Source of the DNA: a virus
IMG/VR virus record: IMGVR_UViG_3300046692_000421
Coordinates: 1 to 23,504 of that record
Length of the DNA stretch: 23,504 nt
Direction: 5' to 3' (one strand)
This document shows positions 5,344 to 20,421 of the stretch, in pieces. The notes below the pieces were generated by a model, which saw only the letters and a program-made list of their open reading frames with translations, ran no database searches and had not been told where the DNA came from. The number at the start of each line of letters is the position of its first letter. Positions within the stretch are counted from its first letter, which is position 1. Position numbers and translations under genes: made by a program.

Positions 5344-5373
5344 ATATTAGCACTGCTGTTTTACAATAAACAA
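5344..5373 (-). promoter_or_regulatory. PR-type promoter for cro operon
   Basis: On the minus strand TTGTTT (5373-5368) is followed after 18 bp by TAATAT (5349-5344). The first operator core (5349-5357) lies in the spacer next to the -10, so repressor binding would block polymerase directly. Cro begins 27 bases downstream. Confidence 0.75.
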
Positions 5374-5417
5374 GGATTTGATTAGCAGTGCTGTTTGCGT
5401 AAATAACAGCTGTGCTA
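5347..5417. promoter_or_regulatory. Right operators (three CI/Cro sites)
   Basis: Three copies of the operator TTAGCASTGCTGTT: 5347-5361 (core AGCACTGCT 5349-5357), 5382-5396 (core AGCAGTGCT 5384-5392), and an inverted, slightly diverged copy at 5403-5417 (core AGCTGTGCT 5408-5416). Core centres are 35 and 24 bp apart. The 9-bp core is palindromic around one base. The same sequence recurs at 8186-8219. The cI promoter (PRM) must lie here too; TTGATT (5378) with TAAATA (5400) is a weak candidate. Confidence 0.85.
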
Positions 5418-5430
5418 CTTAATCACGCGC

Positions 5431-6240
5431 ATGAGAAAACCTATCCGAACCCCACTGAATCCTGAGCAGTTGGCCGACGCCGAGCGCCTGAAGAAGGCGT
5501 ATTTGGAAAAGGTCGCTGAATCGAAAGCCAAAGGCGAAAAGCCGGCGCTCAACCAAAGTGAAGTTGGCGAGAAATGCGGTTGGAATTCTCCGCAGAGCAC
5601 GGTTAGCCAATACCTCAATGGAAAGGTTGCCCTCAACCTCGATGCACTGCTCAAGCTCGCAGATGTGCTGGGGATTAAAGAGCCGTGGAAGATCAGCCCG
5701 ACTCTGGCTGGCGGACTCAAGCGCGTTGCAGCGATTTCCTCAACTCCTAACGGATCCGCGAACGCTGCAAATACGCCCTTCCCGGTCGGTGGTGACGCCG
5801 AAGCTGCCGAGGACAAATACGCTCACGTCCCTCAGCTCACTGCGAGAGCTGCTGCCGGGCTTGGCTCAGAGAACCCGCACGTCGAATCCAACACGACCTT
5901 GGCGTTTAAGCGGGACTGGCTGCGCACCAAGGGAGCCAAGGCTGAAAACCTGTTGGTGATCTACGCCGAGGGCGAAAGCATGTGGCCGACGATCAACGAC
6001 CACGATGTGCTCCTGGTGGACAAGTCGAAAATCGACCCAGCCGACGGCCATGTCTTCGTTCTGTCCAGCACCGACAAGGGTGCGATCGTGAAGCGCCTGG
6101 TGCAGTCGCCTTTAGGTGGCTGGATCATCCGGAGCGACAACGAGGACAAGACTGAGTACGGAGATTTGCTGCTATCGCGGAGCGACGTGAACGAGCACCG
6201 CATAATTGGGCGCGTGATCTGGCGTGGCGGCGATCTGTAG
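5431..6240 (+). CDS. cI: CI-type prophage repressor, S24/LexA-like self-cleaving
   Basis: A 269-residue repressor. Residues ~38-64 are the HTH (LNQSEVGEKCGWNSPQSTVSQYLNGK). The C-terminal half is an S24 peptidase domain: cleavage site Ala-Gly at 142-143 (TARAAAGLG), catalytic Ser183 in GESMWPTI and catalytic Lys221 in AIVKRLV. RecA-stimulated autocleavage and SOS induction are therefore expected. It lies divergent from cro and should hold PR and PL silent through the shared operators. No Shine-Dalgarno sequence precedes ATG 5431, so the message may be leaderless or have a very short leader, as for lambda cI from PRM. No obvious terminator follows. Confidence 0.93.
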   Translation: MRKPIRTPLNPEQLADAERLKKAYLEKVAESKAKGEKPALNQSEVGEKCGWNSPQSTVSQYLNGKVALNLDALLKLADVLGIKEPWKISPTLAGGLKRVAAISSTPNGSANAANTPFPVGGDAEAAEDKYAHVPQLTARAAAGLGSENPHVESNTTLAFKRDWLRTKGAKAENLLVIYAEGESMWPTINDHDVLLVDKSKIDPADGHVFVLSSTDKGAIVKRLVQSPLGGWIIRSDNEDKTEYGDLLLSRSDVNEHRIIGRVIWRGGDL

Positions 6241-6307
6241 ACCCAAAAGGTTGTCGATTGACAGCAAAAAAGCCAAACACATAATTGCGAGCGCATTCAA
6301 GCGTTAA

Positions 6308-6336
6308 TTGACATAGTTATCCAGATTTCCTATTAT
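6308..6336 (+). promoter_or_regulatory. Near-consensus sigma70 promoter for the DUF3800 gene
   Basis: TTGACA, 17 bp, TATTAT: the best promoter match in the window. A second, weaker one lies just upstream (TTGACA 6258-6263, 18 bp, TAATTG 6282-6287). No operator core overlaps either, so the gene downstream should be transcribed in the lysogen. Confidence 0.8.
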
Positions 6337-6393
6337 TAACCCTAGGTGCACGTAAAGCCTGAGATAACCGCGAAGCATGATTTGTATCGTAAG

Positions 6394-6432
6394 CGCTCTG
6401 TAAGAGCGTCGGCCTCAGGGGGTGCACCCCCT
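6394..6432 (+). other. Two leader hairpins upstream of the DUF3800 gene
   Basis: CGCTCT-GTA-AGAGCG (6394-6408) and the perfect 16-bp palindrome AGGGGGTGCACCCCCT (6417-6432) lie in the ~110-nt leader. No T-tract follows the second, so it is not a standard terminator. With no clear Shine-Dalgarno before ATG 6452, the hairpins may limit or regulate translation. Confidence 0.55.
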
Positions 6433-6451
6433 CATTTCTAATCCGCTTTCT

Positions 6452-7114
6452 ATGACGAAACTTTTCATTTTCTTGGACGAAAGCGGAGATCTTGGTTGGA
6501 AATTCGACCAGCCCTATCGGGATGGCGGCTCCAGTCGATACCTCACGATATCTGCCCTCCTGGCCTCTGAGCAATCAGTACGATTGCCTGGTCGTGTCAT
6601 GCGCAAGCTATACGATCGATTCAAATGGCCTACCGATAAAGAGAAAAAATGGGCTCGCATGGAGCCAGAGGAGCGCATCGAATTTGCCCGACTCGCCGCG
6701 AAACTCTGCGCTGGCAACGCCGGCAGCATTCAATACGTCTCGATTACCGCAAAGAAAGAAAACGTGATGCCCCATATCAGGCGGGATCCGAACAAGCTTT
6801 ATAACTACATGATCGGGATGCTTCTACTCGACCACATGTCCAGGGTCGATGAGGTGATATTCGCGCCGGATGATCGTAGCGTTAAGGTAAGGAGCGGCAA
6901 CAGTCTTCACGACTACCTCCAAACTCAGCTGTGGATGGAGAGAGATGTTGCTACCGAGCTAAAAACTCTTCCTTGCGACAGTGCGAAAAATCTCTGCGTC
7001 CAGTTCGCCGACATGCTGTCAGGCGTCGCTCAGAGTCATTACGAAGATCGCAGCTCTGAACCTCTGAGAACGCTGGCAAGACACTTCAGGCCTTTTTTGA
7101 TTTACAACCGCTGA
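6452..7114 (+). CDS. DUF3800 family protein in rex-like position
   Basis: A 220-residue protein beginning MTKLFIFLDESGDLGW. The N-terminal hydrophobic strand followed by DESGD is the signature of DUF3800, a family considered to have an RNase H-like fold with acidic metal-binding residues. Near the C-terminus CVQFADMLSGVAQSHYED gives the second conserved acidic segment (QxADxxxG). Length fits the family. It sits between cI and the left operators on the cI strand, like lambda rexA, but has its own strong promoter and a terminator 4 bp after the stop. DUF3800 genes are frequent in prophages and defence-type islands; a nuclease or exclusion function here is a hypothesis. The start lacks a ribosome binding site. 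Confidence 0.82.
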   Translation: MTKLFIFLDESGDLGWKFDQPYRDGGSSRYLTISALLASEQSVRLPGRVMRKLYDRFKWPTDKEKKWARMEPEERIEFARLAAKLCAGNAGSIQYVSITAKKENVMPHIRRDPNKLYNYMIGMLLLDHMSRVDEVIFAPDDRSVKVRSGNSLHDYLQTQLWMERDVATELKTLPCDSAKNLCVQFADMLSGVAQSHYEDRSSEPLRTLARHFRPFLIYNR

Positions 7115-7117
7115 CAG

Positions 7118-7140
7118 GCCTGCCTTGCGCGGGCTTTTTT
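7118..7140 (+). terminator. Intrinsic terminator after DUF3800 gene
   Basis: GCCTGC, loop CTTGC, GCGGGC and T6, starting four bases after the stop codon. One T-G pair in the stem. It isolates the DUF3800 unit from the next gene. Confidence 0.85.
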
Positions 7141-7164
7141 GTGCCCGTCCGCCACCTGCCCACA

Positions 7165-7173
7165 TGGTAGAAT
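7165..7173 (+). promoter_or_regulatory. Extended -10 promoter for the zinc-ribbon gene
   Basis: TGGTAGAAT fits an extended -10 (TGn TANNNT) 27 bases before the GTG start. No good -35 at normal spacing. It is placed directly after the preceding terminator, consistent with an independent transcription unit. Confidence 0.45.
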
Positions 7174-7200
7174 TCGCGCTCAACTATGGAGGGCTGTGCA

Positions 7201-7758
7201 GTGCGTGGACTTGGGATTTGCGTATTGATCGTGGGATTATTCGTCGTCATCGGAGCGATGAGCATGGACGTATCGGTTTCATCCGGTATGGGCAGAGTGA
7301 ACAATCTCGGACTCATGTCAGAGCGGCAGAATTTCACGATCATTGGCGGGATAATCGCTCTTGGCGGATTGTTGATGTTGCTGCTCGGAGGAAAGAAGAG
7401 TGTTGCTGAAGCAGCGCCTGCGAGCTACGACGAAAGACCCTGCCCTTTCTGCGCAGAACCCATCAAGGCCGCTGCGATCAAGTGCCGCCATTGCGGCTCT
7501 GAGGTCCCTAAAGGCGAAGCTGTTCAGATGCGCTCTGAAGGATATGGATGGACAGTTCGGAAGGATTGCGATTCGCCCGAATCTGTAGAGCAGGCAAACC
7601 TGGCGTTTAAAGAGCTTGGCTTCACTCCAACAGCGCCTGACGGATTGGTGGCCATCTGCGGATTCTTCCAGGACAAAGAGCACGCCAAGGTAGCTAAACG
7701 AGATCTCGCCTCTCAGCACCGCCTAGAGACCTATTTGTATTTTCAGCCTAAGCGCTGA
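7201..7758 (+). CDS. Two-TM zinc-ribbon membrane protein
   Basis: A 185-residue protein from GTG 7201, with GGAGGG seven bases upstream; an ATG at 7186 lies before that site and is less likely. Residues ~2-22 and ~46-64 are hydrophobic membrane segments separated by a short polar loop that would be periplasmic. Residues ~81-100 form a zinc ribbon, CPFC followed by CRHC, in the cytoplasm. The last ~75 residues (GWTVRKDCDSPESVEQANLA ... GFFQDKEHAKVAKRDLASQHR) are soluble, with a fold pattern that could be SPOR-like. I have seen similar zinc-ribbon membrane proteins in proteobacteria but know no function. Its place between cI and the left operators, with its own promoter and terminator, makes it a lysogeny-expressed cargo gene. 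Confidence 0.75.
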   Translation: MRGLGICVLIVGLFVVIGAMSMDVSVSSGMGRVNNLGLMSERQNFTIIGGIIALGGLLMLLLGGKKSVAEAAPASYDERPCPFCAEPIKAAAIKCRHCGSEVPKGEAVQMRSEGYGWTVRKDCDSPESVEQANLAFKELGFTPTAPDGLVAICGFFQDKEHAKVAKRDLASQHRLETYLYFQPKR

Positions 7759-7775
7759 AAACTAGAAACCTGATA

Positions 7776-7799
7776 AGCCCGCCACGTGCGGGCTTTTTT
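7776..7799 (+). terminator. Intrinsic terminator after zinc-ribbon gene
   Basis: AGCCCGC, loop CACGT, GCGGGCT and T6. It begins 17 bases after the stop and shares the tail GGCTTTTTTGTGTCCGG with the terminator at 4288-4313. Confidence 0.9.
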
Positions 7800-7835
7800 G
7801 TGTCCGGCTATTGCCATCCGTTTGGATCCTTTCTA

Positions 7836-7851
7836 CTGTATATCCATACAG
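7836..7851 (+). promoter_or_regulatory. LexA (SOS) box upstream of the DUF1654 gene
   Basis: CTGTATATCCATACAG matches the gammaproteobacterial LexA consensus CTGT-N8-ACAG in all eight fixed positions, with the favoured TATA/AT-rich centre. It lies 18 bases before the ATG, over the likely core promoter (for example TTGGAT 7822 with CATACA 7845). The gene should be repressed by LexA and induced by DNA damage. Confidence 0.88.
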
Positions 7852-7869
7852 CTAACCAAGGAGGACCAC

Positions 7870-8121
7870 ATGGCCAAGCAGAAACCCCAGACACCCGCAG
7901 AACCCACTTCCTACGAATTACTCGGCATGCGCGTACAGCGGGCGATCAACACGCCCAGGGCGCAGACCTCAAAGTCCGTTCTTCTGGAGCGATCCGCGAA
8001 TGACGATCCGGCTGACTGGGATCGCATCCTTGACGAGATCGCCGAAAACGACAACGTCACCATTGCCCATCGCGACGACGGCCTGATCCAGCTGTTTTGG
8101 ACGGTGCCAAAAGAAGATTGA
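7870..8121 (+). CDS. DUF1654 family protein, SOS-controlled
   Basis: An 83-residue acidic protein, start ATG 7870 with AAGGAGG six bases upstream. TSYELLGMRVQRAINTPRAQ, then DWDRILDEIAENDNVTI and a closing strand pair DGLIQLFWTVP, match the Pseudomonas-typical DUF1654 family in order and length. The family's function is unknown to me. The perfect LexA box upstream ties it to DNA damage, and its position between the cI cargo and the left operators invites a role in induction or in the host SOS response; that is speculation. A terminator follows 16 bases after the stop. Confidence 0.85.
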   Translation: MAKQKPQTPAEPTSYELLGMRVQRAINTPRAQTSKSVLLERSANDDPADWDRILDEIAENDNVTIAHRDDGLIQLFWTVPKED

Positions 8122-8137
8122 CCGCTACCCGATCAAG

Positions 8138-8164
8138 AAGCCCGCCTTTGCTGCGGGCTTTTTT
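8138..8164 (+). terminator. Intrinsic terminator after DUF1654 gene
   Basis: AAGCCCGC, loop CTTTGCT, GCGGGCTT and further T (T6 run). It separates the SOS-controlled unit from PL, 20 bases before the first left operator. Confidence 0.9.
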
Positions 8165-8183
8165 GTGGACACACGAAAATATA

Positions 8184-8221
8184 TTAGCAGTGCTGTTTAC
8201 AATGAATATCAGCAGTGCTAA
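8184..8221. promoter_or_regulatory. Left operators (two CI/Cro sites)
   Basis: TTAGCAGTGCTGTTT at 8184-8198 (core 8186-8194), and an inverted copy with core AGCAGTGCT at 8211-8219, centres 25 bp apart. The first copy and its right flank (TTTACAAT) also resemble the operator region at 5344-5367, so the two control regions look derived from one another. One site abuts the PL -35 and the other covers the spacer up to the -10. Confidence 0.85.
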
Positions 8222-18339: not shown

Positions 18340-20421
18340 ATGTCCGCGCATCAGAAAAAACACCCCTTCGATTTCAAAACGCAGTACGGCCTTGGCTTCG
18401 ACCCGCAAGACGATGAGATCGTCGTGGACTTCTTCTGCGGCGGTGGCGGCGCCGGTACCGGGCTGGAAATGGGGCTGGGCCGCAAAGTCAGCGTGGCGAA
18501 GAACCACAGCGCCAAAGCAATCAGCATGCACACCATCAATCACCCGGGTGCAAAACACTTCACCACCGACGTGTTCGAGGGTGATCCGGATACGGAGTGC
18601 AGCGGCAAGGCGGTTGGCTGGTTCCACATGTCGCCGGATTGCACGCACCACAGCCAGGCGGCAGGCGGCCAGCCACGTAAGCGCGAGATTCGCAACCTGT
18701 CGTGGATTGGCCTGAAGTGGGCTGGCAAGAAAAAGCCCCGCGTCATCAGCCTGGAAAACGTGAAGCAGATCCTGCAGTGGGGTCCGCTGATCGCCAAACG
18801 CGACAAGGAAAGCGGACGGGCCATCAAGCTTGTGACCGTGCTGAACGCCAAAGGGAAGGAAGTCATCGAGAAGGTTGTTGCGGCACCTGCCGAGGTTGTC
18901 CCGGTCGGCCAGCAATTTCTGGTTCCTGATCCAAAGCGGCGCGGCACCACCTGGCGCCGGTTCGTACAGCTATTGGAAGGCATGGGCTACGCCGTCGAGT
19001 GGCGTGTTATCAAGGCCTGCGACTTTGGCGCGCCGACCAGCCGGGAGCGTCTATTTATGATCGCCCGTTCCGACGGTCAGCCGATTGTGTGGCCAGAGCC
19101 GACACACGCCAAGAAGCCCGCGAAAGGTCAGCAGAAATACCGCACCGCCGCCGAGTGCATCGATTTCAGCGATCTGGGCAAAAGCATCTTCGGACGAAAG
19201 GATGAGTTGGCCGATGCCACCAAGCGGCGCATAGCCAAAGGCATGAAGAAGTTCGTTATCGACAACCCTATCCCCTTCATCGTACCGATCGCGAACTGGT
19301 CAACTGAGGCGGTGCAGTCGATGGATGAGCCGCTGCGCGCTGTGACTTCATACCCTAAAGGCGGTTCGTTCTCTGTAGTCAGCCCGGTGATCGCGCCAGC
19401 AACCCACCAGGGCAGCGACCGCATCAACGACCCGCTCGAACCTCTGCCGACCGTGACCTGCGCCAACCGGGGCGAACTGACATTGATCAGCCCGATTCTG
19501 GCCGGGGTCGGCGGCAGAGCTGGACAAACCGAGCCACGCTCAGCCGCTGATCCGATGTATACCGTGACGGCAAAGGCAGACACCGCCATCGCTTCAGCGC
19601 ACCTGGTCAAATTCCGGTTCGACGATGAAGGCAAAGCGCTGGACGATCCACTTCCCACGATAACCAGCGGCGGCAACTACCAGCGCCCAGCAGGCGCCGC
19701 CCACGCCATGGGCATCGCCACCGCATTCATGGCGCAAATGAATGGCGGTTTCAACACCACCGACGCGAAAAGCCTCAATGACCCGATGACCACGGTGACG
19801 AATACCGGCAGTCAGCAGCAACTGGTGACGGCAAGTCTCCTGCACCTGCGAGGTAATTGTGATGCCAGGGCGGCGGATGAACCCTTGCATACTGTCAGTG
19901 CCGGCGGCACCCACCACGGCCTGATGACTGCCTTCATGGAACGTCAGTTCGGCACCAGCGTTGGCCAGGCACTGACCGACCCATCGCCGACGATCACTGC
20001 CGGTGGTGACGGAAAGAGTTCGCTAGTCAGCTTTGAGCTTTCGCCCGAGCATGAAGAAGGCGCGCTGCGGGTTGCTGCATTCCTGATCAGCTACTACGGC
20101 ACAGAGAACATGAGCACCTGCGATCAGCCGGCGCCCACGATCACGACCAAGGATCGGCTGGGCCTGGTCATCGTCATGGTAAAGGGCACGCCCTATGTGA
20201 TCGTCGATATCAGGCTGCGGATGCTGCAACCGGCTGAGCTGTACCGGGCGCAGGGATTCCCACCGGACTACATCATCACGCACGGCGCCGACGGCAAGCC
20301 GTTCACGAAGACCGAGCAGGTCCACATGTGCGGCAACAGCGTAAGCCCGCCGCCGATGGCCGCCCTCGCCCGCGCCAACGACCCATGGCGCGCCGCTGAA
20401 CGCCAAGCCGTCGCCGCCTGA
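18340..20421 (+). CDS. C5 cytosine DNA methyltransferase with repeat-type target domain
   Basis: A 693-residue enzyme, GAGGAG five bases before ATG 18340. Motif I DFFCGGGGAGTGLE (30-43), motif IV SPDCTHHS with catalytic Cys101, motif VI SLENV (137-141), motif VIII-like TSRERLFMIAR (233-243), motif IX/X at 629-672 (LQPAELYRAQGFPPDY, then MCGNSVSPPPMAAL). Between ~327 and ~612 lie about eight repeats starting D/E-P-x-x-T-V/I-T. S-adenosylmethionine supplies the methyl group. In phages such enzymes guard the genome against host restriction. No cognate endonuclease gene is adjacent, so it is likely a solitary enzyme. Confidence 0.92.
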   Translation: MSAHQKKHPFDFKTQYGLGFDPQDDEIVVDFFCGGGGAGTGLEMGLGRKVSVAKNHSAKAISMHTINHPGAKHFTTDVFEGDPDTECSGKAVGWFHMSPDCTHHSQAAGGQPRKREIRNLSWIGLKWAGKKKPRVISLENVKQILQWGPLIAKRDKESGRAIKLVTVLNAKGKEVIEKVVAAPAEVVPVGQQFLVPDPKRRGTTWRRFVQLLEGMGYAVEWRVIKACDFGAPTSRERLFMIARSDGQPIVWPEPTHAKKPAKGQQKYRTAAECIDFSDLGKSIFGRKDELADATKRRIAKGMKKFVIDNPIPFIVPIANWSTEAVQSMDEPLRAVTSYPKGGSFSVVSPVIAPATHQGSDRINDPLEPLPTVTCANRGELTLISPILAGVGGRAGQTEPRSAADPMYTVTAKADTAIASAHLVKFRFDDEGKALDDPLPTITSGGNYQRPAGAAHAMGIATAFMAQMNGGFNTTDAKSLNDPMTTVTNTGSQQQLVTASLLHLRGNCDARAADEPLHTVSAGGTHHGLMTAFMERQFGTSVGQALTDPSPTITAGGDGKSSLVSFELSPEHEEGALRVAAFLISYYGTENMSTCDQPAPTITTKDRLGLVIVMVKGTPYVIVDIRLRMLQPAELYRAQGFPPDYIITHGADGKPFTKTEQVHMCGNSVSPPPMAALARANDPWRAAERQAVAA

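Follow-up and report, generated by a model that had tools for sequence, protein, structure and literature searches.

The DUF3800 gene that lies behind the CI-type repressor of this phage is preceded by a conserved, structured RNA of 88 nt, and judging from the sequences compared, RNA and protein together form a self-contained two-part module. The window analysed here comprises a complete virus record (23,504 bases), whose early region is lambdoid according to profile searches (O-like replication, Rha/Ant, CII and Cro genes in minus and CI in plus orientation) and whose closest relatives are Pseudomonas prophages. An association between RNAs and DUF3800 genes is already known, and the RNA of the window is a diverged relative of the catalogued DUF3800-I RNA. 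What is new is a widely distributed DUF3800-I-like subfamily, its near-obligate pairing with the protein, and the occurrence of phage-borne orphan RNAs. As read from the sequence, the layout runs from a promoter through the RNA to the DUF3800 start codon, 21 nt past the end of the RNA, and ends in a terminator:

5431-6240, plus strand: CI-type repressor (HTH and peptidase S24, profile match), directly upstream of the module and outside it
6308-6336, plus strand: promoter TTGACA-17-TATTAT, 11 of 12 consensus matches
6344-6431, plus strand: 88-nt structured RNA, DUF3800-I-like (covariance model R1, 91.9 bits, E 4e-25; covariation)
6452-7114, plus strand: DUF3800 protein of 220 aa with an RNase HII-like predicted fold (PF12686, phrog_9243)
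7116-7143, plus strand: intrinsic terminator with a GCGGGCTTTTTTGTG arm, which closes the module

The original prediction was of a DUF3800 gene at the rexA position behind the phage repressor, bearing a promoter of its own, a terminator and a leader with a hairpin. The gene and its position behind a CI-type repressor were confirmed (PF12686 at 40.8 bits, cut-off 21, E 4.7e-10; phrog_9243 at E 2.5e-63), and both the promoter sequence and the downstream terminator (7116-7136) are present. A promoter of the TTGACA-17-TATTAT type is by itself within chance expectation (2 found versus 2.3 expected). A -10-like box ending 3-14 nt 5' of the RNA, however, recurs in 51 of the 60 homologous loci, as against 15-28 in upstream control windows, and the -35 and -10 boxes are kept in relatives while the spacer diverges. 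Transcription is expected to start at about 6343-6345, where the RNA has its 5' end. The most likely start codon of the 220-aa protein is the ATG at 6452, because relatives conserve it and the alternative GTG at 6422 falls within the RNA; this ATG has no clear Shine-Dalgarno sequence. Between RNA and ORF, a T-tract occurs in 40 of 60 relatives and is absent in the window, and no clear terminator was found there in the window or in the other Pseudomonas members. Taken together, the weak translation start and the T-tract of the 40 relatives favour an excess of RNA over protein.

The hairpin of the proposed leader (6417-6432) exists, but it is part of the larger conserved RNA, being the palindromic 3' strand of its closing stem, and is incidental. 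In the RNA, a closing stem P1 of 7 bp and an inner stem of 6 plus 4 bp lead to a three-way junction, from which two hairpins branch. This structure, first read by eye, was reproduced by RNAalifold on the upstream sequences of 60 homologues, which had been aligned with MAFFT without using the structure. Under it, 93.5% of the cells pair, compared with 76.1% in shuffled and 31-46% in slid alignments. Double (compensatory) changes are found at 24 of 29 pairs and in 365 cells, versus 112 in the shuffled and at most 82 in the slid controls. None of 500 shuffles matched the observed value on any of these measures; the shuffles keep the relatedness of the sequences and the slid controls remove it. 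Since single-sequence folding gave a z of just -1.75, the case for the structure rests on covariation. The GUAAA sequence, the UAA junction and several pairs are near-invariant. A guide RNA was considered and rejected, as the alignment of 60 contains no variable unpaired segment.

Conservation of the RNA exceeds that of the coding DNA. The roughly 85 nt from the -10 box to the ORF are almost unchanged across 11 aligned Pseudomonas relatives. Between the window and six relatives, the RNA is 82-91% and the protein 70-93% identical, as against 41-51% at third codon positions of the ORF, a measure taken because dS is saturated. Conserved RNA and protein over diverged third positions speak for long co-conservation with selection on both, and not for a recent copy.

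No Rfam family matched anywhere in the window at the gathering cut-off. In a restricted search at low threshold, the single match of the region was DUF3800-I (RF02969), to whose full model the RNA aligns with 28.3 bits (E 0.016), under the gathering cut-off of 44.2; two relatives scored 37.6 (L109) and 30.2 bits (L110) with the same model. The UAAGCG hairpin, the CCG/CGG inner stem and the placement at a DUF3800 gene are shared with RF02969, whereas the score below its cut-off and a covarying closing stem P1 that spans the whole element set the window RNA apart. Most relatives of the RNA are missed by Rfam 15, even at E 1, and the covariance model R1 recovers such members.

Across 757 kb of loci, R1 gave 63 matches, one per locus, all directly upstream of DUF3800 and on the same strand, and an RNA precedes every DUF3800 homologue whose 5' region is intact (63 of 63). 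The only two loci that R1 did not match carry an N-terminally truncated gene (L066) or a decayed one (L097). Because most of the 63 matched sequences were also training sequences of R1, the held-out loci weigh more. Two of these (L059 and L067) were matched, as were plasmid and phage DUF3800 homologues of 28-55% protein identity that had been chosen by protein only: L107 (72.7 bits, 55% identity), L110 (62.4 bits, 36%), L109 (49.6 bits, 41%), L108 (49.2 bits, 42%), L111 (36.9 bits, 31%), L084 (32.8 bits, 39%) and L113 (24.4 bits, 28%). Upstream pairing fails for the Firmicutes DUF3800s only (L085 and L112). No intact protein of this subfamily was seen without the RNA. The hosts include Gammaproteobacteria, Acidobacteria, Bacteroidetes, Chloroflexi, Cloacimonadota and others, and the module is found in prophages, on small plasmids (Acinetobacter pittii, Thiothrix) and on chromosomes with ordinary neighbours. 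Of 349 Pseudomonas genomes, only the two that encode the intact protein have the RNA; in this genus the module is rare, linked and mobile.

Several side observations concern these loci. Downstream of the Firmicutes genes, a similar-looking element (GTAAACCC or TCRTAAGC plus a hairpin) was recognized by eye (L112:1461-1600, L085:3679-3860), and such elements are probably other DUF3800 RNA types. In a Streptococcus satellite phage, a sequence of about 29 nt, ACGCAAACCCCAGCAGGTCGGCGCGTGGAA, flanks DUF3800 on both sides (L085:2900-2985 and after 3678). Elsewhere the upstream RNA is intact and DUF3800 is frameshifted or interrupted (L016 and L047, both from Actinobacillus seminis, and L062, L063, L068, L069 and L078); some of these interruptions may be sequencing errors of metagenome assemblies.

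The predicted assignment of the protein to an RNase H-like family with a DESGD motif was borne out. An AlphaFold2 model computed from 49 homologues (pLDDT 92.8, pTM 0.90) predicts an RNase HII-like fold with high confidence, and every one of the 21 best structural matches in the PDB is an RNase HII, H2 or HIII, with a best E of 5e-5 and a TM of about 0.5. A sequence search of the PDB returned no relevant match. RNase HII carries a DEAGRG motif, which the DESGDLG of the DUF3800 protein resembles; unlike RNase HII, to which its identity is about 13%, the DUF3800 protein has a paired RNA. D9 and E10 of the DESGD motif are invariant and D140 and D187 show at least 90% conservation; the four would fit a DEDD-type acidic site. 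The protein also matches weakly a candidate defence family of PADLOC (PDC-M04A, E 4.6e-7). In a large CRISPR survey, DUF3800 was described as an RNase H fold with a catalytic rearrangement, linked to ncRNAs (PMC10910872).

The RNA also occurs without the gene. Pattern scans of viral contigs and a plasmid search recovered it in six phage or phage-like records (L071, L082, L099, L104, L105 and L090, the last being the P. aeruginosa phage-like plasmid CP092847). A profile search found no DUF3800 in the available sequence of these records, nor was one found directly downstream of the RNA; as several of the viral records are fragments, this absence applies to the recovered sequence and not to the whole virus. 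The orphan RNAs, none of which was in the training set, score 68-82 bits with R1. Double changes affect 19 of 29 pairs and 91.3% of the cells pair, in an alignment to R1 that leans towards the model. Genes for an endolysin (L071), a tail terminator (L099) and a portal protein (L105) are among the neighbours, and in the lambdoid phage sequence of CP092847 the orphan is flanked by a Q-like position and the holin gene. Its flanks match 52 phage records; the RNA itself was without a match in a DNA search of an annotated phage collection, and no annotated phage carrying the RNA was found by DNA search. These orphans look like phage decoys, and their location near lysis and structural genes suggests that phages meet the DUF3800 protein. 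In the copy of CP092847 (L090:2961-3044), G-C replaces an A-U pair found without exception in the 60 RNAs linked to DUF3800, and pairing is kept.

An RNA antitoxin that controls a toxin of RNase fold fits these observations best because of the anatomy of the locus, the near-obligate RNA and the orphan RNAs. We therefore favour, tentatively and with a confidence just short of calling it probable, an RNA-protein toxin-antitoxin or abortive-infection unit that rides as lysogenic cargo and has a layout like that of AbiF-RCd22, a system of a Clostridioides difficile prophage whose RNA was experimentally found to neutralise the Abi_2 protein (PMC12373285). The module promoter would yield much RNA and, via readthrough or processing, little mRNA. 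The RNA would bind the DUF3800 protein and keep the RNase inactive, as RCd22 does with AbiF or ToxI with ToxN. An infecting phage that shuts off transcription or degrades this RNA could then free the nuclease, which would cut RNA (or RNA-DNA hybrids), abort the infection and protect the lysogen population, and phages with the RNA alone might use it as a decoy. The original prediction of a nuclease lacked the near-obligate RNA partner, with which the likely mechanism becomes that of a nuclease under RNA control instead of a free one.

The antitoxin reading draws on the strong covariation, on the single RNA upstream of every DUF3800 gene with an intact 5' region, on orphan RNAs without counterparts among intact proteins of the subfamily, on an RNase HII-like fold with conserved acidic residues, and on the absence of common neighbours. 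The weak translation start, the T-tract of 40 of 60 relatives and the weak PADLOC match point the same way, as do the AbiF-RCd22 precedent (PMC12373285) and the phage that evades ToxIN by RNA mimics of ToxI (PMC3475682). Several points speak against it: in the window and the other Pseudomonas members no clear terminator separates RNA and ORF, the RNA is single-copy where classical type III systems have repeats, the fold differs from those of ToxN and Abi_2, and several orphan records are fragmentary. Moreover, an activating cofactor RNA would yield equal co-conservation. Toxicity, RNA binding and phage protection are what we infer for the module, and a widespread anti-phage toxin-antitoxin system with an RNase HII-like nuclease at its core, which phages counter with an RNA-only decoy antitoxin, often in late or lysis regions, is a more doubtful proposition.

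Two other readings are live rivals. The nuclease may need the RNA as cofactor, scaffold or sensor and not have it as inhibitor, with the complex recognising nucleic acid of a phage, or some phage process, and cutting RNA or hybrids; taken as a whole, we think this somewhat unlikely. Near-obligate pairing and the RNase H-type fold would agree with it, as would the DUF3800 accessory in some CRISPR V-A2 and VI-F loci, for which roles in interference or crRNA handling have been proposed (PMC10910872, PMC12669027). Yet the RNA offers no variable unpaired segment able to guide, and protein-less orphans are hard to explain unless they work on a further copy present in the cell. Those structure-keeping orphans in phage genomes without DUF3800 also make a cis-acting leader less favoured. 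Such an autoregulatory or ligand-sensing element, which would attenuate DUF3800 expression, could account for an RNA that is always immediately 5' of the gene on the same strand and for the T-tract that 40 of 60 relatives have behind the closing stem, but the window has no terminator at the end of the RNA and related Firmicutes carry the similar-looking element 3' of the gene. We regard it as quite unlikely.

Lower still is the probability that the RNA-protein pair is a toxin-antitoxin serving maintenance (addiction) of prophage or plasmid rather than defence. Its presence on the small A. pittii and Thiothrix plasmids and in prophages would suit that role, whereas chromosomal copies with ordinary neighbours would not, and the orphans near lysis and structural genes suggest encounters between phages and the protein. 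Least probable by our estimate, and scarcely to be expected, is the free-standing lysogenic-conversion nuclease of the original prediction, with the RNA as an mRNA leader of no role of its own. Promoter, terminator and the position behind CI agree with such a gene, but the RNA is more conserved than the coding DNA, shows compensatory changes and occurs alone.

With AbiF-RCd22, the module shares the prophage location and the order of promoter, RNA of about 100 nt and a single ORF. The protein there is of the unrelated Abi_2/HEPN-like type and the RNA is a different one, and function, proven in that system, is inferred for DUF3800. Type III ToxIN likewise has an RNA directly upstream of an RNase-type protein gene under one promoter, whereas the DUF3800 module has a single three-way-junction RNA without tandem or pseudoknot repeats, and an RNase HII-like predicted fold in place of the ToxN/AbiQ-type endoribonuclease fold. 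In the literature searched, no functional study of a DUF3800-RNA pair was found. Several DUF3800 RNA motifs have been catalogued without an assigned function, and DUF3800 is an unexplained accessory of CRISPR V-A2 and VI-F loci. An 88-nt RNA with a precise structure and a 220-aa protein with candidate catalytic residues are a tractable pair, and the phage orphans make the antitoxin question directly testable.

The comparison with rex holds for the position: as with RexAB of phage lambda, the cargo sits in the lysogeny region behind cI on the same strand. Unlike RexAB, it is a single gene plus an RNA under its own promoter, and a profile search found no RexA or RexB domains in 6452-7114, 7186-7758 or 7870-8121. 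The claim of an independently promoted cargo gene beside CI was upheld, and the cassette is self-contained. Of 10 prophage relatives examined, 7 have an HTH-S24 repressor ahead of the module, with differing CI subfamilies; in the comparison of 11 Pseudomonas relatives, the neighbouring CI is either absent or 41-66% identical. Beyond the prophage relatives, 70 immediate neighbours had no common family (the largest shared family has at most two members). RNA and DUF3800 therefore appear to need nothing else, and the module is cargo behind cI. For the same lack of a common family, a defence island was rejected. The zinc-ribbon gene (7186-7758), whose product is a membrane protein, and the DUF1654 gene (7870-8121) were rejected as parts of the module, since they are absent or different in relatives and have separate terminators.

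Control of the module by CI was likewise rejected, as no copy of the CI operator was found at its promoter. Operator-like sites (TTAGCAGTGCTGTTT-like) lie at 5347, 5382 and 8184 and are likely operators of CI/Cro. Two are placed before cI/cro (5347-5397); the third, at 8184-8199, suggests a second repressed promoter there. The three successive single cargo genes (DUF3800, zinc-ribbon and DUF1654) end, over 7116-8167, in terminators with the identical 15-base arm GCGGGCTTTTTTGTG, at 7129, 7788 and 8153 (chance 0.01), as might be seen in a row of independently inserted cassettes. About 30 nt 5' of the -35 box, a CCAARCACA block (6273-6281) is kept in most Pseudomonas relatives and may be a binding site or the edge of a cassette. 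Elsewhere in the window, 18340-20421 encodes a C5-cytosine methyltransferase of 693 aa with about eight degenerate DPLPTVT-like repeats between its conserved halves.
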